Shown here: one piece after another, positions 3 through 7,953 of the stretch | How positions within the stretch are numbered: position 1 is the stretch's first letter | Layout: every line of letters starts with the position of its first letter | Assembly (NCBI GenBank): GCA_002352945.1 | Contig: DDHL01000023.1 | Location: 6,706 to 19,090 of the forward strand | DNA from: Campylobacteraceae bacterium UBA1877 | Lineage (GTDB): Bacteria; Campylobacterota; Campylobacteria; Campylobacterales; Campylobacteraceae | Direction: 5' to 3' | DNA: 12,385 nt | The notes under the pieces: model-generated | Databases searched by the model: none | Told to the model about the DNA's origin: nothing | What the model saw: only the letters and a program-made list of their open reading frames with translations | Position numbers and translations under genes: made by a program

Positions 3-830
3 GGCTACCGTTCGGTGCTTTTTCATCAAGTATTGAGTTTTTCAAAAACCTTTACAACCATTAAAAAGTTTAGCCAAGATGATTATTCAAATATGGCTTT
101 TATGCCAGGGTGCGCTCTTAGCTCATACTCTCCTGAACTTGTTAAATCCATAATTAAATACCTTCGCTCAAAATTGCCTGGTATAAATGTACTCATGCAG
201 TGCTGTGGAAAGCCCATGCGTATTGTTGGAGATATGAAGCGTTTTGAGAAGTACTATGGGTATTTAGAAAGTGATATCCAGCGACTTGGGGTAGATACGG
301 TTGTAACTGCTTGTGAAAACTGTTATATGAGCTTAAAAAATCTCTCACCCCATGTAAAAACAGTCTCTTTGTATGAGGTTTTAGCAGATGTTGGCATTCC
401 AGAGCGTGATTTTAGCCATGTGACTCCGGTTACCCTGCATGATCCATGCCCAACACGTTACGAAAAGTCCCTTCATGAAGCTGTACGAAAAATTTTGCAC
501 CAAATGAAGCTTGAATTTGAAGAATTTAAGTTTAATCGTACAAAGACGCAATGTTGTGGAAGTGGTGGAATGTTAGCTTTAACGAACCCCAAATTATCCC
601 GTGAACAGATGGTAAATAGAGCTAATCAAACTCAGCGTGATACTATTGTTAGTTATTGCCAAGAGTGCTGCAACTCCATGACACGAGGCGGTAAGAAGGG
701 AGTTCATATTTTGGACTTACTCTTTGATGAAGAGGTGTCAACAAGTTTAATTCAGCCAAAAATGACGACAATAAAGTCATGGTTGAATCGGTATAAAACA
801 AAACGGATGATAACAAAATTAGAGGGCTAA
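3..830 (+). CDS. HdrB-like (Fe-S)-binding oxidoreductase subunit with two CCG domains, possibly 5' partial
   Basis: The protein carries two cysteine-rich CCG (DUF224) domains of the kind found in heterodisulfide reductase subunit B, glycolate oxidase GlcF and LutA. Numbering from the GTG at 15, the first set is C33, C63-C64-G and C100-x2-C103; the second is C145, C180-C181-G and C215-x2-C218, with an extra C219. In this family such cysteines bind noncubane or other Fe-S clusters for thiol/disulfide or electron-transfer chemistry; the substrate here is unknown. The frame is open to base 3 and no ribosome-binding site can be judged in the 14 bases before the GTG, so the true start may lie upstream, perhaps with an N-terminal ferredoxin domain. 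One base separates its TAA from the next start, so it is probably co-transcribed with the ABC importer. The family assignment is secure; the physiological role is not. Confidence 0.8.
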   Translation, partial: GYRSVLFHQVLSFSKTFTTIKKFSQDDYSNMAFMPGCALSSYSPELVKSIIKYLRSKLPGINVLMQCCGKPMRIVGDMKRFEKYYGYLESDIQRLGVDTVVTACENCYMSLKNLSPHVKTVSLYEVLADVGIPERDFSHVTPVTLHDPCPTRYEKSLHEAVRKILHQMKLEFEEFKFNRTKTQCCGSGGMLALTNPKLSREQMVNRANQTQRDTIVSYCQECCNSMTRGGKKGVHILDLLFDEEVSTSLIQPKMTTIKSWLNRYKTKRMITKLEG

Positions 831-831
831 A

Positions 832-1950
832 ATGCGAATGTTTGGACTTTTTTTACTACTGCCAATTGTTAGCTTTGCACAAAGCGTTTCAATCTATATG
901 TGGGGAGGCAGCAGTGCAGTTAATGCCTATATGGACGAGCATATCATTCCACTGATAAAAAAAGAGAAAAATATCGATTTAAAACGTGTTCCCATTGAAG
1001 ATCCAAAGACGATACTGCGCAGAATCCAAATGGAGAAAAACGCCCATAGAAATGGGGATGTTGATGTGCTTTGGATAAATGGTGAAAATTTTAAACTAGC
1101 TAAAGATTTAGGGCTTTTGTATGGTCCATTTTTAGATAATTTGTCAAATTACAAAAATTTCATAAATCCAGATGATAAAACCTTACATGTAGACTTTACT
1201 GAGCCAATTGACGGGCTTGAAGCTCCTTTTGGAAGGGCTCAGCTAGTTTTAGTTTACGATAGTGCTAAAACTCCCAACCCACCAAGAAGTCTTGATGAGC
1301 TTGAAGCGTGGGTGCGGCAAAATCCAGGAAAGTTTACCTATCCTTTGCTACCCGATTTTACCGGAAGCGCTTTAGTTAGAGCATTTTGGATGCAAGTAAA
1401 GGGTAAAGATGGATTTAAAAAGAGTGTTATTGAAAATGAGAGCAAATCATTTTGGGAGCGTTTAAAATCCCTTAAGCCTTACATGTACAATGGCGGATTC
1501 CAACCTGCAAATATTGCAATGCAAGATGTGCTTTTTGGCAAAGGGGATGTTGCATTTACCTTTACTTATCACCCATCAAGTGTAGTAAATAAGATAAATT
1601 CAGGGGATTTTCCAAAAACAACCCGCATTACAACATTTAAAAAAGCTTCCATTGCAAATACTCACTACATGGCTATTTCCATTACATCTTCAAAACCTAA
1701 GCTCGCTCAAGAGGTGATCGATTTTCTTATATCGCCAACTGCGCAAGCACTCAAGCAAAACCCATCAATCTGGGGAGATGAAACGGTGCTTGATTTAAAT
1801 AGGCTAAACCCAAAAGAGCGCAAAGCGTTTCATTTTTCCCATCCAGCACTTTTATCTCAAGAAGAGCTTAAAAAAGATGCCATTGGTGAAATGAGCGCAC
1901 CTTTGATTGAGCTCATGGAAGAGCTTTGGGAGGCTCATGTCCTTAGATGA
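832..1950 (+). CDS. ynjB: YnjB-like periplasmic substrate-binding protein of an ABC importer
   Basis: This is the solute receptor of the transporter encoded downstream. Residues 1-16 form a signal peptide with likely cleavage after Ser-Phe-Ala, so export to the periplasm is expected. No lipobox cysteine is present. The fold is that of a class II extracellular binding protein. Stretches matching what I recall of E. coli YnjB (COG4134) include WGG at 24-26, WINGENF at 81-87, YPLLPDFTG at 170-178 and IWGD near 313-316. The ligand of YnjB proteins is not established. The start at 832 is supported by AGAGGG at 821-826, five bases upstream; a second ATG at 838 is too far away. The 3' end overlaps the next gene. 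Length (372 aa) is near that of E. coli YnjB. Confidence 0.88.
   Translation: MRMFGLFLLLPIVSFAQSVSIYMWGGSSAVNAYMDEHIIPLIKKEKNIDLKRVPIEDPKTILRRIQMEKNAHRNGDVDVLWINGENFKLAKDLGLLYGPFLDNLSNYKNFINPDDKTLHVDFTEPIDGLEAPFGRAQLVLVYDSAKTPNPPRSLDELEAWVRQNPGKFTYPLLPDFTGSALVRAFWMQVKGKDGFKKSVIENESKSFWERLKSLKPYMYNGGFQPANIAMQDVLFGKGDVAFTFTYHPSSVVNKINSGDFPKTTRITTFKKASIANTHYMAISITSSKPKLAQEVIDFLISPTAQALKQNPSIWGDETVLDLNRLNPKERKAFHFSHPALLSQEELKKDAIGEMSAPLIELMEELWEAHVLR
1183..1192. repeat. TACATGTA-core palindrome, copy 1
   Basis: TTACATGTAG inside ynjB; read in frame as Leu-His-Val. Confidence 0.5.
1479..1488. repeat. TACATGTA-core palindrome, copy 2
   Basis: TTACATGTAC inside ynjB; read as Tyr-Met-Tyr, a different codon phase from copy 1. 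Confidence 0.5.
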
Positions 1951-2617
1951 GAATTTTATCCAAGCCGTAGGCTATGGCTTATGGGTTGGGGCTTTGGTTT
2001 CCCTTGTTGCTGCTATGGTCTCTCTTGCAATTTTGTACGCCCTTTTATCTTTACATGTAAAGCATTCAGCCTTTATACCCCTTTGGATTTTAGGCTTTAG
2101 TATACCTCTTTTTATCCCATATACACTCATGGCTTTAGTGCTTTTTTTATGGTTCTATCCTAGCGGATTCATTGGTTCAATTCTACCCTCTTTAATGGGT
2201 TCAACTCTTGCATTAGTACTTGCATATAGCATTAAAACAGGAGCTTTTTTAACCATTGTTGGCATTCCAACCTTAGTTTCAACCAAACTCAATGCATGGG
2301 CACAATATAGGCTTTATAATGGAAGTTTATTTGGGTTTTTTGTCCATATTATTATCCCAAAACTGTGGACATCTATGATAATTGGAATGTATGTAATCCA
2401 TGCTTATGTTTTAGCAGCTTATGAAATTCCTTATTTAATTGGTTCGCGCCAAAACCCCATGCCTGCAATCATCATCCACGATACACTTAACAAGTTAGCC
2501 CTTGATAGTGCTCAAAAAGCCTATGAGATGAGTGGCTGGCTCATTGGCGTTATGCTTTTGCTTGCTCCAATCTATTTTGGAATTTATCGGTTTGTCTTAA
2601 AGAGGTTAAAACCATGA
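1937..2617 (+). CDS. YnjC-type ABC permease, N-terminal-half equivalent
   Basis: This is a hydrophobic inner-membrane protein of 226 aa with about six membrane segments. A cytoplasmic EAA-like loop lies around 'RLYNGSLFGFFVHIIIPKLW', ending in the typical Val/Ile-x-x-Pro pattern that docks on the ATPase. It probably corresponds to the first half of E. coli YnjC, which is one long fused permease. The ATG at 1937 is preferred because GGGAGG at 1928-1933 lies just upstream and the protein then starts with a plausible short cytoplasmic tail; the spacing is short (3 bases), and a TTG at 1907 would add ten residues. The gene overlaps ynjB by 14 bases and the next permease gene by four (ATGA), which suggests translational coupling and one-to-one assembly. 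Confidence 0.82.
   Translation: MSLDENFIQAVGYGLWVGALVSLVAAMVSLAILYALLSLHVKHSAFIPLWILGFSIPLFIPYTLMALVLFLWFYPSGFIGSILPSLMGSTLALVLAYSIKTGAFLTIVGIPTLVSTKLNAWAQYRLYNGSLFGFFVHIIIPKLWTSMIIGMYVIHAYVLAAYEIPYLIGSRQNPMPAIIIHDTLNKLALDSAQKAYEMSGWLIGVMLLLAPIYFGIYRFVLKRLKP
2049..2062. repeat. 14-bp perfect palindrome, copy 3
   Basis: CTTTACATGTAAAG inside the first permease gene; read as Leu-His-Val-Lys. It is identical to the copy at 10764. Confidence 0.65.
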
Positions 2618-3303
2618 AAGGACACATCTTTTTATCTGCACTATTTATTCTTTTAATTACAATTTTAGGGATTTTATTAAAAGAGGCTCGGCTAAGTGAG
2701 CTTATTGTTCAAAAAGCATTTTGGGATGCACTTTTATGGAGTTTGTGGCTGGGGTTTGTAAGCGTAGTTTTGGCATTTGCAGTAAGCTTTTTATCCATTT
2801 ATATTCCAAAAACAGTATGGCTTTTAGCCTTTTTTGGGATAATAACCCCGCCATTTTTACTTGGAATGGGTTTAACATGGGTAAGTATCCGCTTGCACCT
2901 TGGCAATATTGCACTCTATTTTGCCCATGCTCTTAGCGTACTGCCTTATGTTTTATTTTTCTTTACCCTCTCATACAAAAGAATTGTTCCAAGCTTAAGG
3001 GCTCAAGCTAAGATGCATGCAAACAATTTTTTAGACCAAGTTAGATATTTTTATCTACCTGTAATGGCTCCATCGCTTAGTGCAGGAGCGGCTGATGGAA
3101 TAAGTGTATCTTTAGCCCAATATATGCTCTCGCTTCTACTGAGTTCTCATTCAACTTTATCGACGCAGATGGTTCCACTTTTACATAGCGGGCAGTTAGG
3201 TGGTGCAGCTGGGTATGGGGTGATCTATTTGATGTTAGCTCCAATTGTAATTTTAGTCATTGCATGGGCTATGAAAGGAGAGTTGTGGCGTCCTTACATG
3301 TAA
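2614..3303 (+). CDS. YnjC-type ABC permease, C-terminal-half equivalent
   Basis: This second integral-membrane subunit of the importer (229 aa) has about six hydrophobic segments. Its EAA-like loop contains Ala-rich 'RAQAKMHANNFLDQ' followed by 'YFYLPVMAPSLSAG'. With the preceding gene it would form a heterodimeric translocation pore; the pair together (about 455 aa) approximates the single fused YnjC of E. coli. The ATG at 2614 overlaps the upstream TGA in an ATGA junction. Its own stop TAA lies inside a TTACATGTAA palindrome and overlaps the start region of the ATPase gene by 19 bases. The permease family is clear; equivalence to the YnjC C-terminal half is inferred from gene order and the neighbouring YnjB-like and YnjD-like proteins. 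Confidence 0.82.
   Translation: MKGHIFLSALFILLITILGILLKEARLSELIVQKAFWDALLWSLWLGFVSVVLAFAVSFLSIYIPKTVWLLAFFGIITPPFLLGMGLTWVSIRLHLGNIALYFAHALSVLPYVLFFFTLSYKRIVPSLRAQAKMHANNFLDQVRYFYLPVMAPSLSAGAADGISVSLAQYMLSLLLSSHSTLSTQMVPLLHSGQLGGAAGYGVIYLMLAPIVILVIAWAMKGELWRPYM
3274..3280 (+). promoter_or_regulatory. Ribosome-binding site for the ATPase gene
   Basis: AAAGGAG lies four bases before the GTG at 3285 and inside the end of the upstream permease gene. It is downstream of the alternative ATG at 3264, so it favours the GTG as the real start. Confidence 0.6.
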
Positions 3304-4265
3304 AGAATTTAAAGATAGTTCAGGGAGATTTTCAATTAGAAGTTTCAAACTTCTCTTTAAAAAGTGGGAATTTTTTAGGAGTTTTAGGCGCTTCAGGAGC
3401 TGGAAAAAGCACCCTTTTGCACGCTATTGCGGGACTTAGTGAGTGTGAGGGTGAAATTTGGCTAGATAAAAAGCCCTTGCATAATTTAAAACCCCATTTG
3501 CGCGAGATTGGGATGGTTTTTCAATCGCCAGTGCTTATGGATGATTGGAGTGTTGAGGAGAATTTACGACTTTTGTTGAAAGTAAAAAAAGCCCCTAAAG
3601 CTACGTGGGATGAGCGCATTCAAAAAGCTCTTAAAAATGCTCAAGCATCCCATCTTTTAAAATCTAGAGTTTCATGGCTAAGCGGGGGCGAGCGTCAGCG
3701 AATTGGTATTGCCCAATCTTTGCTTTTTGATCCAAAAGTTCTTTTGATGGATGAGCCCTTTAGTGCTCTTGATCCTAGCTTAAGACGGGATTTGCAAGAG
3801 ATGATTCGAGGGCTTGCTAAAAAAAGTAATATTGCAGTTTTATTTGTAACCCACGATAGAGATGAAGCCTTTGAACTTTGCGATAAATTGATGGTCCTTG
3901 AAAAGGGCAGGGTTTTACAAATTGGTTCGCCAAAGGAGTTGTATGAATCTCCAAAAACAGTTGCTTTAGCAAAATATATGGAGCCCCATGGGCTTGTTGC
4001 ATTAGGTAAAGATTTAGATAATCTTTTTGGATTAAAGCTTAAAAATGTGAAGCTACCATGTTATGCTTACATCCCTCCAAGAGCAATTATTAATAACAAA
4101 GAGGGTGTTTTATGGGAAGTAGAACAGACCCATTATGTTGATGGGCGGTTTTTGGTGCGATTTGCAAATGGTTTAAGAACATTTTGGACACACGCTCCAG
4201 ACAAATTTGCAAGAGTTGATCTTGACTGGAGTGCAGTACGTTTTTTAAGGAATGAAAATGAATAA
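3285..4265 (+). CDS. ynjD: YnjD-type ABC transporter ATPase with C-terminal TOBE-like extension
   Basis: This nucleotide-binding subunit powers the importer from the cytoplasmic side. Numbering from the GTG at 3285, Walker A (GASGAGKST) is at 35-43, the Q-loop glutamine is near 80, the signature LSGGE is near 132-136, Walker B (LLMDEP) near 153-158 and the switch histidine (VTHD) near 190. A further region of about 95 residues after the core, with 'IPPRAI' and 'GRFLVRFANG', resembles the TOBE-like regulatory domains of ModC/PotA-type ATPases. As I recall it, E. coli YnjD (about 217 aa) lacks this part. The GTG start is chosen because AAAGGAG at 3274-3280 precedes it and the protein then begins like typical ATPases (ASLHVKNL); an ATG at 3264 is the alternative. 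It overlaps both neighbours. Confidence 0.88.
   Translation: MASLHVKNLKIVQGDFQLEVSNFSLKSGNFLGVLGASGAGKSTLLHAIAGLSECEGEIWLDKKPLHNLKPHLREIGMVFQSPVLMDDWSVEENLRLLLKVKKAPKATWDERIQKALKNAQASHLLKSRVSWLSGGERQRIGIAQSLLFDPKVLLMDEPFSALDPSLRRDLQEMIRGLAKKSNIAVLFVTHDRDEAFELCDKLMVLEKGRVLQIGSPKELYESPKTVALAKYMEPHGLVALGKDLDNLFGLKLKNVKLPCYAYIPPRAIINNKEGVLWEVEQTHYVDGRFLVRFANGLRTFWTHAPDKFARVDLDWSAVRFLRNENE
3294..3303. repeat. TTACATGTAA palindrome, copy 4
   Basis: It contains the stop codon of the second permease gene and lies within the first codons of the ATPase gene. Confidence 0.6.
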
Positions 4266-4932
4266 AAAATTAGCTCTATTGGTTGTTTTTGTTGGGCTTA
4301 TTGTTGGCATGAGGCTTTTAGGATGGGATGAATATATCTCATATGATATGCTCATCCAAAAACGAGAAACACTTTTGCTTTTTGTTGAGGATCACTACTT
4401 TTTATCTGCACTAGCTTTAGTTGTGCTATATGCACTAAGCGTTGCGCTTATGCTTCCAATTGCAACGGTGCTTTCTTTGGCGGCTGGCTTTATGTTTGGA
4501 GCGTTTTTTGGGCTCATTTTTGCAGTTACTGGGGCAACGTTAGGAGCAGTTGCAAGTTTTTATGTGGCTAGATATGTTTTAGGCCAAAGCTTGCAAACAA
4601 AGTATGAAAAAGAGTTAAAAAAGTTTAATGATGGTTTGGAAAAAGATGGCTATAGCTACCTTTTTGCACTACGTCTTATTCCAATTTTTCCATTCTTTTT
4701 GGTTAACCTCTTTTGCGGGCTTACAAAAATTAGCCTAAAAACATTTTTTATTACAACTTTTTTTGGAATAATTCCAGGAGGAATTGCTTATACTTATGCA
4801 GGAAGCCAGCTTTCTTTTATCAATGATGTAGGCGACATTTTTACCCCACAAATCGCAATTGCTCTAGCTCTTTTTGGCTTAGTTGCACTCATTCCAGTTA
4901 TCTATAAAAGATTTAAAAAAGTTCCAAGTTAA
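4258..4932 (+). CDS. TVP38/TMEM64 (SNARE-associated/DedA-like) membrane protein
   Basis: This is an inner-membrane protein of 224 aa with a VTT/SNARE-associated domain. The hallmark segments are a long glycine- and alanine-rich hydrophobic region around 'AAGFMFGAFFGLIF', a basic charged loop (LGQSLQTKYEKELKKF), then 'RLIPIFPFFLVN' followed by the re-entrant 'GIIPGGIAYTYAG' type segment. Relatives include E. coli YdjX and YdjZ and DedA proteins, several of which are implicated in lipid scrambling or ion/solute transport; the substrate here is unknown. The ATG at 4258 is chosen over the one at 4252 because AAGG (4247-4250) has proper spacing only to the former. The gene overlaps the ATPase gene by eight bases and is the last of the operon. 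TVP38 beside YnjBCD is also the E. coli arrangement. Confidence 0.87.
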   Translation: MNKKLALLVVFVGLIVGMRLLGWDEYISYDMLIQKRETLLLFVEDHYFLSALALVVLYALSVALMLPIATVLSLAAGFMFGAFFGLIFAVTGATLGAVASFYVARYVLGQSLQTKYEKELKKFNDGLEKDGYSYLFALRLIPIFPFFLVNLFCGLTKISLKTFFITTFFGIIPGGIAYTYAGSQLSFINDVGDIFTPQIAIALALFGLVALIPVIYKRFKKVPS

Positions 4933-4951
4933 GCCTTTACTGGCTTAACTT
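4926..4951. terminator. Shared hairpin at convergent gene ends (probable bidirectional terminator)
   Basis: AAGTTAAGCC (4926-4935), a six-base loop, and GGCTTAACTT (4942-4951) form a perfect 10-bp stem. The TAA of the TVP38 gene (4930-4932) lies in the left arm, and the - strand stop of the transferase gene (4937-4939) lies in the loop. On the - strand, a run of six T follows about five bases after the stem, which is like an intrinsic terminator. On the + strand only a short T/A-rich tract follows. Confidence 0.65.
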
Positions 4952-6250
4952 ATACTGTAAAGCTTTGTAAAAGTTTGCCAATTTTTCTGGTGAAACTTTA
5001 AGAGCATAAAGAGTGCTTAAAATGCGATTTCTAAGGGTTGTATAAAAAAGCCCCTCTTCATGCCACCTGCGAGCAGATGTAATGACTTTTTCATTTAAAA
5101 TAATGAGTTTAAAGCCTTTTGATTTTAAAGCCCTTATAACTGCCACATCTTCCATGATTGGAATAGATGGAAATTTGCCAATTTTTTTAAAAACATCAGC
5201 TTTGAAAAATTGGGCTTGATCACCATAGGGTGTGCTAAAGATTTTAGCTCTTACATTTGTCATAAAAGCGACAAATTGCAGCCATTTTAAAGGTGAATCA
5301 ATGCTTAGACTAAATGCGCCTGCATCACTAGTTTGTAAAGCTTTTTGAATAAGAGTATCCCAGTTTTTTGGCAAGAGTGTATCTGCGTGTAAAAAAAGAA
5401 CAATTTCGCCCTTTGCAGCATCAAATCCTGCATTTAACTGGTTTGCCCTTCCTTTTGTGCTACAAATGAGGCGAACAGGATTTGAAAACTGCAATCTATC
5501 AATAGATGTGCGCTCGTTTGTATCAACTACAATAACCTCAAAATCTCTATTTTTAGCATTTTCGTAAGCTAGATTCACTGTTTTAACTGCTTTGGTATCT
5601 TCATAATAAACTGGCATAATGATGCTGATTTTTGGCAAATTTTGCACAATTGGCTTGATAAAAAGGCTAAATGGATTTTTTGGATAGCTTTGATAAAAGC
5701 TGCGTAAATCTTGCACCGTATCGATATCTTCAAGTAGTTTTCCATGTTTTATTCGCAAACCTTTTAAGGCTTTACATGTAAGGCTAAAGACATTTTTGTT
5801 TTTAAAATCAATCTCAAAAGCCTCTGCTCTAAAATGCTTCTTTTTAAAACCAATAAGATAATACCCCTTATCTTTTGTTGGAGAAATTACAGCATCTGCA
5901 TTTTTTAATAGATGAAAAGCTTTGTTTATGACATCTTTGTCTAAACGAGGAATATCAGCCCCAACTAAGATAACTTCATTGTAGCCTAAATGAAAAAGAT
6001 GTAAAAAAGCATTTTGCATCCGTTTTGCTAAATTTGAGCCAGTTTGCGGAAAGCTTGAAAATTTTGAAGGAATAAAATCTTTGCATCCACTATATGCTAT
6101 AAAAACCTTCATTGGCACTTTTTGACCAAAGAGCTGCTTGAGAATGAATTTGTAGATTAAAAGCGCATTTGTATTTCCAATGGAGGCTGCAAGACGGGTT
6201 TTTGCATAATTTCTCTGGGGTGATTTGCAAAAGTAGATTATTGCTCTCAT
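4937..6250 (-). CDS. Fusion of DUF2064/CofC-like transferase 1 and GT2 glycosyltransferase (transferase 2)
   Basis: Two enzymes are joined in 437 residues. Residues 1-190 are a DUF2064 (TIGR04282, 'rSAM/selenodomain-associated transferase 1') domain of the nucleotidyltransferase fold, with KTRL at 17-20 and GADIPRLD at 97-104. After a short linker, residues 205-425 are a family 2 glycosyltransferase of the 'transferase 2' group (TIGR04283): IIMPVYYED at 210-218, GRANQLNAG at 267-275, the metal-binding region HAD at 288-290, GDQAQFF at 343-349, ED at 367-368 and TSARRW at 391-396. No signal peptide or membrane span is seen, so a cytoplasmic location is likely. Its ATG overlaps the kinase stop (ATGA), so the two are coupled. 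I infer activation of a sugar phosphate followed by transfer to an acceptor; substrates are unknown. Confidence 0.88.
   Translation of the reverse strand: MRAIIYFCKSPQRNYAKTRLAASIGNTNALLIYKFILKQLFGQKVPMKVFIAYSGCKDFIPSKFSSFPQTGSNLAKRMQNAFLHLFHLGYNEVILVGADIPRLDKDVINKAFHLLKNADAVISPTKDKGYYLIGFKKKHFRAEAFEIDFKNKNVFSLTCKALKGLRIKHGKLLEDIDTVQDLRSFYQSYPKNPFSLFIKPIVQNLPKISIIMPVYYEDTKAVKTVNLAYENAKNRDFEVIVVDTNERTSIDRLQFSNPVRLICSTKGRANQLNAGFDAAKGEIVLFLHADTLLPKNWDTLIQKALQTSDAGAFSLSIDSPLKWLQFVAFMTNVRAKIFSTPYGDQAQFFKADVFKKIGKFPSIPIMEDVAVIRALKSKGFKLIILNEKVITSARRWHEEGLFYTTLRNRILSTLYALKVSPEKLANFYKALQYKLSQ
5772..5781. repeat. TTACATGTAA palindrome, copy 5
   Basis: Inside the transferase fusion gene, read as Thr-Cys-Lys on the - strand. 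Confidence 0.6.
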
Positions 6251-7269
6251 TTTAATCCATCCAAAAGATCTTGGAGTGTTGTGATATGTTTGAAGTTTTC
6301 AATAAGATGGCAAGAGAATTGATCCATCTTTTTGTAAGCCTCTTTTTTATCTTCTAAAAGCTCCAAAGAGATAGACTTTGCCGGAACTACTAAGCGTCTT
6401 GCAATCTCAACCCCGCAAAATCCTACGCTTTGGCTAAAAATTTCATCTAAATCATCTTGCTTTTTTATATTGTAAACAAAGCTCTCCCAAAAAATTTTTA
6501 GAGCTGATTTTAAGGGAAAATCTCTTAAATAACTATCCATAATAGTATGAGCAAATACATTTCCTATATCAAAACTAATTGGTCCAAAAAGGGCAAATTC
6601 TGCATCGATGATTGCAATTTGATCATTTTTTATCAAAATAGATCCTGTGTGCAAATCGCCATGAATAAGATAGGGTTGGGGCGTATTAAAAAGCTCTTTT
6701 AAATAGGAGAGATTTTTTAAAAGAAGTTTTGATTTTTTGAGTGGTTTAAACCAAGGGTGGGGCATAGTTTTTGGAGAGTTTTTTATAAAGGCGATACTAA
6801 AAACATACTCATTTGTGATTGATTTTAAGGTGGGGTTTTCATAATATTTTTTTGCACAATTTTTTGGCCGGTTTAAGTAGAGCTTTGCTAGAAACTCTCC
6901 AATTTTTTTATATATTTTGGGGTTAAATTCCCCTAAAATATGCCTATCTCTTAAGAGGGAAAAACCTTTTTTATATTCAAGCACAATAGTATGTTTGCTC
7001 TCATTTACATGTAAAACTTTAGGGATAAAATTTGGAGCAATTAAGTGAAAGTATTGGAGTGCATGCGCCTCTATGCTAATTCGCTCTTGTCCTAGGGGAA
7101 ATGAGGGGCCAAGCATGTGTAAATATGGAGGTGCGTACTTGCAGACAATCTCTTTGTTTTGAGAATCTTTAACCAAGATGACCTCATTCATATTGCCTCC
7201 ACTTAAAGGCTTACATGTAAAAGGCGGTTCTAAGAATGGGCAACTATTTAAAAAACTATAAAAATCCAT
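6247..7269 (-). CDS. MtnK-like (5-methylthioribose kinase-related) sugar kinase
   Basis: This is an APH/choline-kinase-fold phosphotransferase that most resembles S-methyl-5-thioribose kinase. A nucleotide-binding loop GGNMNEV sits at 24-30. The region LGPSFPLGQERISIEAHAL (53-71) parallels the MtnK loop that carries a Trp, with Phe57 here. The catalytic motif HGDLHTGSI is at 203-211, the metal site DAEFALFGP at 222-230, and a paired Arg291-Arg292 sits where MtnK uses arginines for the sugar. At 340 aa it is shorter than the roughly 400 aa I recall for B. subtilis MtnK, and the segment after the Arg pair is diverged. It may phosphorylate a 5-modified ribose at C1, for example from 5'-deoxyadenosine salvage or from a modified nucleoside. 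AGGAG at 7274-7278 gives the start. It is first in a two-gene - strand operon. Confidence 0.8.
   Translation of the reverse strand: MDFYSFLNSCPFLEPPFTCKPLSGGNMNEVILVKDSQNKEIVCKYAPPYLHMLGPSFPLGQERISIEAHALQYFHLIAPNFIPKVLHVNESKHTIVLEYKKGFSLLRDRHILGEFNPKIYKKIGEFLAKLYLNRPKNCAKKYYENPTLKSITNEYVFSIAFIKNSPKTMPHPWFKPLKKSKLLLKNLSYLKELFNTPQPYLIHGDLHTGSILIKNDQIAIIDAEFALFGPISFDIGNVFAHTIMDSYLRDFPLKSALKIFWESFVYNIKKQDDLDEIFSQSVGFCGVEIARRLVVPAKSISLELLEDKKEAYKKMDQFSCHLIENFKHITTLQDLLDGLK
7004..7015. repeat. 12-bp TTTACATGTAAA palindrome, copy 6
   Basis: Inside the MtnK-like gene, read as Leu-His-Val-Asn on the - strand. Confidence 0.6.
7211..7220. repeat. TTACATGTAA palindrome, copy 7
   Basis: Near the 5' end of the MtnK-like gene, about 200 bases from copy 6 and read as Thr-Cys-Lys. 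Confidence 0.6.
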
Positions 7270-7344: not shown

Positions 7345-7953
7345 ATGGAACCACTTTTCATAGCAGAGGTTATTGGCACTATGGCATTTGCACTTAGTGG
7401 ATTTTATGTGGCAGCTAAAGATCGTTTAGATTTGCTTGGCGTTTTTATAGCGGCCTTTTTAACCGCCCTTGGAGGCGGAATTACCCGTGATGCCATAGCA
7501 GGACGAGCCCCATATACCTTTACTCACATACTACCTGGAATCTTGGTTGTTGTTGTTTTGCTTTTTGCAATTATATTTAAACTCCATAAGCATGACCAAG
7601 TTGAGCAAAAGTTTATCTTTATTATAAGTGATACTTTGGGGCTAGTTTCATTTTCAATTACCGGTTCGCTTGTAGCTTTACAAAGCGGTTTTAACTTTTT
7701 TGGGATTATAATGCTAGGACTTACTACAGCCGTTGGTGGAGGAATTATGCGCGATATTTTGCTCAATAAGGTTCCGCTTATTTTAAGCACTGGTCTTTAT
7801 GGAACAGTTTCGCTTTTTATTGGAACACTGCTTTATTGGCTTAATATTGTGGATTTTTTAAATCCTCTTACAATTTTAATATGTGCAATTTTAGGGCTTA
7901 TATTACGCTTGCTTGCCTATTATCAAAATTGGCATCTGCCTGTACTAAAGTGA
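7345..7953 (+). CDS. TRIC/UPF0126 family membrane protein (YicG-like)
   Basis: This is a 202-residue inner-membrane protein made of two homologous UPF0126 repeats of about three membrane segments each, plus a final segment. Each repeat contains the diagnostic glycine triplet followed by Arg-Asp: GGGITRD at 43-49 and GGGIMRD at 131-137. Prokaryotic TRIC homologues form cation (potassium) channels, and some UPF0126 members have been linked to glycine transport; the sequence does not decide between these. AAAGGG just upstream provides a ribosome-binding site. It has its own promoter, is divergent from the kinase operon, and is separated from argD by a second promoter, so it appears to be a single-gene unit. 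Confidence 0.88.
   Translation: MEPLFIAEVIGTMAFALSGFYVAAKDRLDLLGVFIAAFLTALGGGITRDAIAGRAPYTFTHILPGILVVVVLLFAIIFKLHKHDQVEQKFIFIISDTLGLVSFSITGSLVALQSGFNFFGIIMLGLTTAVGGGIMRDILLNKVPLILSTGLYGTVSLFIGTLLYWLNIVDFLNPLTILICAILGLILRLLAYYQNWHLPVLK

Follow-up and report, generated by a model that had tools for sequence, protein, structure and literature searches.

Gene content of the locus

A 12,385 nt stretch of the genome of Campylobacteraceae bacterium UBA1877 (phylum Campylobacterota; contig DDHL01000023.1, positions 6,706 to 19,090), hereafter the window, was analysed with a focus on two genes of the minus strand. They encode a kinase resembling 5-methylthioribose kinase (MtnK) and a fusion of two transferase domains. 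The kinase gene (6247..7269, 340 aa) and the fusion gene (4937..6250, 437 aa) overlap by 4 nt. A plus-strand operon comprising rhodanese, Fe-S/CCG, YnjBCD-type importer and VTT genes converges on this pair. The host genome amounts to 1.94 Mb on 121 contigs and is 82% complete. The original prediction had described the pair and read it as a pathway that activates and transfers a 5-modified ribose; the observation itself is confirmed and the interpretation finds partial support, while the convergent operon had not been considered.

The first domain of the fusion (residues 4-182; 5705..6241, minus strand) matches TIGR04282 (DUF2064/CofC-like) with 134 bits (cut-off also 134), PF09837 with 81.7 bits and PDB 3cgx with E 8.5e-24. 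The DUF2064/CofC-like sequence and the similarity to 3cgx suggest a nucleotidyltransferase. The second domain (residues 208-428; 4967..5629, minus strand) belongs to TIGR04283 (GT2; 212.7 bits vs a cut-off of 182) and is a predicted glycosyltransferase. NCBI names both families 'arsenosugar biosynthesis glycosyltransferase' and thereby already assigns them to arsenosugar biosynthesis.

Coupling of kinase and transferase genes in Campylobacterota

In 9/9 loci, i.e. the window and eight sister loci (L019-L021, L023-L027; where named, from Sulfurospirillum, Sulfurospirillaceae and one 'Proteobacteria' metagenome-assembled genome (MAG)), the two genes share 4-19 nt and keep their order; the fusion of L026 extends past its contig end. 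The tight coupling proposed earlier is hence borne out. Moreover, for 19 of 80 kinase protein clusters the longest contig is exactly equal in size to that of a fusion cluster. Among 150 sampled Campylobacterota genomes, nine carry TIGR04283 above the cut-off and four of these nine carry a member of the kinase clade (P 6e-6 if the genomes were independent, which they are not). Kinase matches of any kind occur in 13 of the 150 genomes (four of the kinase clade, four MtnK-like, five weak phosphotransferases). In the openly accessible literature, which mostly leaves out subscription papers and preprints, nothing on such a kinase-transferase coupling was found, including the accessible parts of PMC12159101, PMC2194712, PMC6079011, PMC6302742, PMC8801600 and PMC10456119.

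The kinase keeps the C1 machinery of MtnK and differs in the 5-pocket

The window kinase is predicted to phosphorylate a 5-modified ribose at C1. It scores 206 bits against the MtnK family model (TIGR01767), below the cut-off of 275, and one sister kinase reaches 228.6 bits. In the tree its clade is separate from MtnK with a support of 100/100. The predicted structure shows the MtnK fold (MtnK structures 2olc and 2pyw), which confirms the fold only.

Residues were compared by alignment to B. subtilis MtnK in 85 rows of the kinase clade, 18 Poribacteria-type rows and 57 MtnK-type rows. Invariant in all three sets are H203 and D205 of the HGD catalytic loop (H203-D205; 6655..6663, minus strand), D222, E224 and F225 of the DAEF motif (D222-F225; 6595..6606, minus strand), which holds the Mg-binding DXE and the sugar-contacting F, and the sugar-binding RR motif (R291-R292; 6394..6399, minus strand). 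The roles of the HGD loop, the IDXEF motif and the RR motif are those given for MtnK in the accessible part of PMC2194712. In the GXGNXN loop of the window kinase S replaces the first G. With the HGD, DXEF and RR residues kept, the earlier assignment as an MtnK-type kinase holds.

According to the same accessible part of PMC2194712, W74, L180 and L345 of B. subtilis MtnK cap the 5-methylthio group, although they are not strictly conserved across MtnKs. All three capping residues differ in the window kinase. The W-loop W74 is replaced by F57 (7099..7101, minus strand; F in 81/85 clade rows, W in 50/57 MtnK-type rows), L180 by Y155 (6805..6807, minus strand; Y in 85/85 clade rows, as opposed to L in 42, F in 13, M in one and V in one of the 57 MtnK-type rows) and L345 by P296 (6382..6384, minus strand; P in 84/85 vs L in 44/57). 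In addition, K298 (6376..6378, minus strand; K in 84/85) is located at the place of H347 (H in 41/57). Judged by sequence, the C1 and ribose-binding machinery of MtnK is intact in the kinase clade and the 5-pocket is altered. Besides these replacements, the score and the separate clade, the window kinase differs from MtnK in its overlap with a transferase gene and in a genomic setting in which MtnA was not found (see below).

The 18 Poribacteria-type kinases (L028-L044, L046; 17 from Poribacteria and one from Latescibacterota, ~30% identity) show Y at the places of L180 and W74 and A at that of L345. They were rejected as relatives of the pair, as they form a separate clade (6/18 in the tree). 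No match to transferases of the fusion type was found near any of the 18, with 4-21 kb of each locus searched.

Metabolic setting and a proposed route

The nucleosidase MTAN is found above the cut-off in 9/9 pair genomes, including that of the window, as anticipated by the earlier idea of a nucleosidase upstream of the kinase. MtnA (TIGR00512) was found in none of the nine, the absence being weaker for the window's own genome because of its incompleteness. Such cells are hence expected to liberate 5-modified riboses, but apparently cannot carry out the isomerase step that either methionine salvage or 5-deoxyribose disposal requires. Both processes were rejected as the leading explanation, given the missing MtnA and the different 5-pocket.

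A role of the kinase in disposing of 5-methylthioribose or 5-deoxyribose, as in MtnK or DrdK, with its place beside the fusion being secondary, is still to be weighed as an alternative. MtnK is the nearest characterised family, MTAN is present, and, according to the accessible part of PMC6079011, either sugar is a substrate of the MtnK homologue DrdK, which feeds an isomerase and an aldolase. DrdK, as described there, resembles the window kinase in being an MtnK homologue that makes a ribose 1-phosphate after a nucleosidase. However, the isomerase of the DrdK pathway (TIGR00512) had no match in 9/9 pair genomes (the class II aldolase was not searched genome-wide), and the window encodes a nucleotidyl-/glycosyltransferase fusion instead. 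Together with the gene overlap in 9/9 loci and the replacement of three out of three 5-pocket residues, this makes disposal unlikely.

We rather assume that kinase and fusion act as one line that activates and transfers a 5-modified ribose, with a probability of roughly 0.5. A 5'-modified nucleoside would be cut by MTAN to a free 5-modified ribose, or the sugar would be taken up, e.g. by the YnjBCD-type importer. The MtnK-like kinase would phosphorylate C1 of this ribose, which would carry a 5-substituent other than methylthio. From the resulting sugar 1-phosphate, the TIGR04282 domain would form a nucleotide sugar, whose sugar moiety would then be transferred to an acceptor by the TIGR04283 domain. 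The activities of both proteins are predictions; that nucleotidyl transfer takes place and that the reactions follow one another is likewise inferred, as are the substrate and the acceptor. If true, the MTAN-released 5-modified riboses would have a non-degradative fate in bacteria whose genomes showed no MtnA.

The link to arsenic is indirect

The original prediction had tied the pathway to ArsS. ArsS (TIGR04167) is above the cut-off in 0/9 pair genomes and likewise not in the genome of Alicyclobacillus (10 checked), with a best score of 28.8 bits vs a cut-off of 300 in the window's own genome. In the 150-genome sample ArsS exceeds the cut-off in five genomes, which are exactly the other five TIGR04283 genomes (P 2e-7 if the genomes were independent, which they are not); the five ArsS genomes and the four kinase-clade genomes are disjoint. 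The claim in this form did not stand, and a strict ArsS locus was rejected.

In 7/8 sister loci a radical SAM-ArsM-like fusion is located near the pair (L019:13439-15619, plus strand; L020, L021, L023, L024, L025, L027). The remaining sister locus, L026, is held by a 7.7 kb contig; a radical SAM-ArsM-like enzyme is encoded elsewhere in that genome. The ArsM-like domain scores 207 bits against PRK11873, under the cut-off of 263. In 6/7 loci the fusion shares a single reading frame with DUF5714 (near the double selenoprotein MbdU). It is a candidate for a single protein that would correspond to ArsS and ArsM together. In the window's own, 82% complete genome only the radical SAM portion of the radical SAM-ArsM query was matched (36.5 bits, query 74-249), and an ArsM-like domain was not found.

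The phylum sample yielded five ArsS loci (L157-L161), all from the window's own family and with ArsS above the cut-off. Fe-S/CCG and VTT genes are common to them, the window and 7/8 sister loci (not L027). In all five, TIGR04282 is joined in one protein to a phosphotransferase domain, which supports the earlier idea of a kinase step coupled to the transferases; three of the five proteins were scored with Pfam and two of them exceed the APH gathering score. The window thus resembles ArsS loci in TIGR04282, TIGR04283, VTT and Fe-S/CCG genes, but lacks ArsS, has an MtnK-like kinase instead of the other phosphotransferase and holds both transferases in one protein. Members of this other phosphotransferase subfamily joined to or beside TIGR04282, with N-T-E-[LV]-N at the place of HGD, are L157:7848-9296, L158:11017-12537, L159:6541-8058, L189:9492-10517, L192:8700-9707, L193:10085-11137 and L196:6479-7513.

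A neighbourhood survey, as proposed with the original prediction, gives a mixed answer. None of the nine pair genomes has ArsS above the cut-off, whereas an ArsM-like domain is present as a fusion in 7/8 sister loci and the nucleosidase MTAN in 9/9 genomes. The separation from ArsS comes close to the refuting outcome named with the original prediction, namely pairs never found in genomes with ArsS-type enzymes, and the radical SAM-ArsM-like fusion and the partner genes common to ArsS loci keep a part of it alive. Altogether the arsenic link of the window pair is indirect. For the sister loci with the radical SAM-ArsM-like enzyme, and for these only, dimethylarsinoyl stands first among the candidate 5-substituents, and in this sister lineage the line may serve organoarsenic chemistry that is begun by the radical SAM-ArsM fusion.

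The phosphotransferases at TIGR04282 in ArsS and Bacillota loci belong to another APH subfamily with weak similarity to thiamine kinase and choline kinase. This is consistent with a different function of the pair, in which, as with LicA and LicC, the kinase would act on the acceptor or on some other small molecule and the TIGR04282 domain would activate the resulting phosphate ester instead of a sugar 1-phosphate. CofC, a characterised relative of DUF2064, does activate a non-sugar phosphate ester. For the window pair, whose kinase retains the residues of MtnK for C1 chemistry and ribose binding, we regard such a function as quite improbable.

Importer and similarity to the E. coli ynj cluster

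The YnjBCD-type ABC importer of the convergent operon (832..4265, plus strand) consists of neighbouring genes that overlap and is a possible source of substrate. Its binding protein (832-1950, plus strand) scores 358.8 bits against PRK11622 (cut-off 203) and 187 bits against E. coli YnjB. Two membrane proteins (1907-2617 and 2614-3303, plus strand) are named by place, as no NCBIfam or Pfam model matches them at E 0.01. The ATPase (3264-4265, plus strand) matches E. coli YnjD with 105 bits.

Loci with a YnjB-type protein were also found around TIGR04283 in other phyla. Among Bacillota all three (L189, L193, L196) carry a phosphotransferase and no ArsS match, and L196 has a nucleoside hydrolase as well. 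Both such loci in the set of 40 examined from Pseudomonadota have a phosphotransferase by BLAST, which Pfam confirms for L304, but not for L289; the L304 kinase adjoins the importer and is located ~4.6 kb from TIGR04283. The association of importer and kinase has P = 5e-5, a value that counts the unconfirmed L289 and ignores that the loci are not independent.

These data bear on a version of the one-line reading that is free of arsenic, in which a YnjBCD-type importer takes up a nucleoside or modified sugar, which would then be phosphorylated, activated and transferred for envelope or storage purposes. As it is contained in the one-line reading, its odds are not to be added to those given above. 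In its favour are the importer loci of the two other phyla and the window itself, which has the importer, with no ArsS or ArsM-like enzyme found in its incomplete genome. However, YnjB had no match in the sister loci, where the radical SAM-ArsM-like fusion is present, and importer and pair are not one transcript because they are convergent. We hold this version possible at rather less than even odds; in the window lineage, the line may be fed by import.

The operon resembles the E. coli K-12 stretch ydjXYZ-ynjABCDEF (L257), where VTT/DedA proteins, a ferredoxin-type protein, the YnjBCD importer and a sulfurtransferase are found together; in addition to YnjB and YnjD, YdjX/YdjZ match with 74 bits. 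It differs in that no TIGR04282, TIGR04283 or MtnK-like gene is annotated from ydjX to ynjF. The link of the operon to TIGR04282/TIGR04283 loci may hint at what the E. coli cluster handles.

Kinases, phosphorylases and hydrolases near the transferases in other phyla

Neighbourhood gene content of the comparison loci was scored by tblastn. In Bacillota, the phylum of Alicyclobacillus, TIGR04283 is above the cut-off in 18/299 genomes, and all 18 loci were examined. Five have a kinase beside TIGR04282, which is APH-type in L189, L192, L193 and L196 and an MtnK in L197 (L197 and L079 being one locus). Strong ArsS matches occur in three of the 18 loci and a YnjB-type importer in three, each with a kinase. 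A nucleoside hydrolase (PF01156) overlaps a module gene in L192 and L196.

The Alicyclobacillus ferrooxydans locus L079 has a 406-aa MtnK-like gene in convergent overlap with TIGR04282, followed by TIGR04283. It was rejected as an instance of the same system: its kinase groups with MtnKs on a long branch, W is kept at the W-loop and MtnA is present in the genome, which points to a separate recruitment at best.

In Pseudomonadota, the phylum of the Thiotrichales MAG L058, TIGR04283 exceeds the cut-off in 126/299 genomes. Forty loci were hand-picked from those listed and are no random sample. MTAP was seen in seven, weak phosphotransferase matches in five (confirmed by Pfam in L304, L318 and L320, not in L289 and L295), neither in 28 and strong ArsS in four. 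In the seven loci MTAP lies ~2-3 kb from TIGR04283, and in the two inspected, L298 and L310, outside the TIGR04283 operon. In these two a ~355-aa protein overlaps the TIGR04283 gene (L298:7520-8584, L310:9138-10205); the two proteins look similar, that of L310 having weak ATP-grasp similarity under the cut-off. Among 20 Pseudomonadota ArsS loci picked from 114 genomes with a match, MTAP is found in two and TIGR04283 in three. In L245, a locus with TIGR04282 and TIGR04283, MTAP and ArsS are encoded on one strand with 5 bp between them; in L246 the two genes are divergent.

A possible shared C1-activation line

Ribose 1-phosphate can be reached on two textbook routes, by a hydrolase plus a kinase or by a phosphorylase; MTAP yields ribose 1-phosphate directly. 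Both routes are represented in the vicinity of these transferases, although the majority of the loci have neither. The earlier expectation of a nucleosidase-type gene near TIGR04283 or ArsS thus holds for some loci of other phyla, in the form of a nucleoside hydrolase or MTAP.

Several points weigh against the one-line reading. The TIGR04282 match barely reaches its cut-off (134 bits vs 134, zero margin). Neither ArsS in the pair genomes nor an ArsM-like domain in the window genome was found, as stated above. The phosphotransferase of ArsS loci is not MtnK-like, as N-T-E-[LV]-N replaces HGD in 9/9 proteins of the subfamily; it may hence act on something else or be no kinase, and the domain of L157, one of the three scored, is under the Pfam gathering score. 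Kinase and MTAP were both not seen near TIGR04283 in 13/18 Bacillota and 28/40 Pseudomonadota loci, so that the kinase step is not general. Finally, none of the 58 loci has both MTAP and a kinase, but this mutual avoidance is not significant (P = 0.24).

We know of no characterised enzymes that turn the 5'-arsenic nucleoside made by ArsS into a glycoside. For algal arsenolipid, the accessible part of a review merely sketches a proposed nucleosidase step (PMC10456119). The pair might expose this missing second half of arsenosugar-type biosynthesis. It would be a shared C1-activation line, leading via nucleosidase, hydrolase or phosphorylase to ribose 1-phosphate, nucleoside diphosphate ribose and the glycoside, and working here without ArsS. 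The line would be fed by the radical SAM-ArsM fusion in the sister lineage or by the importer in the window lineage, with the kinase pocket re-tooled for a new 5-substituent. This extension is tentative and we consider it rather doubtful. Nevertheless, the intact C1 machinery, the altered 5-pocket and the overlapping fused transferase gene make the question of how an arsenic nucleoside becomes a glycoside testable with two purified proteins.

Remaining genes of the window

The C-terminal part of the Fe-S/CCG protein is encoded at 3..830 on the plus strand (PF02754, 67.4 bits). The gene begins upstream of the window, beyond an assembly gap: it is split by a run of N (L002 ~6490 to 6705), and its 5' portion and the rhodanese gene are immediately upstream of the window. 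The VTT (TVP38-type) membrane protein follows the importer at 4252..4932, plus strand (PF09335, 101.8 bits). Both are partner genes of the operon. The next gene on the kinase side (7345-7953) encodes a membrane protein of the Gly_transporter family and looks unrelated.

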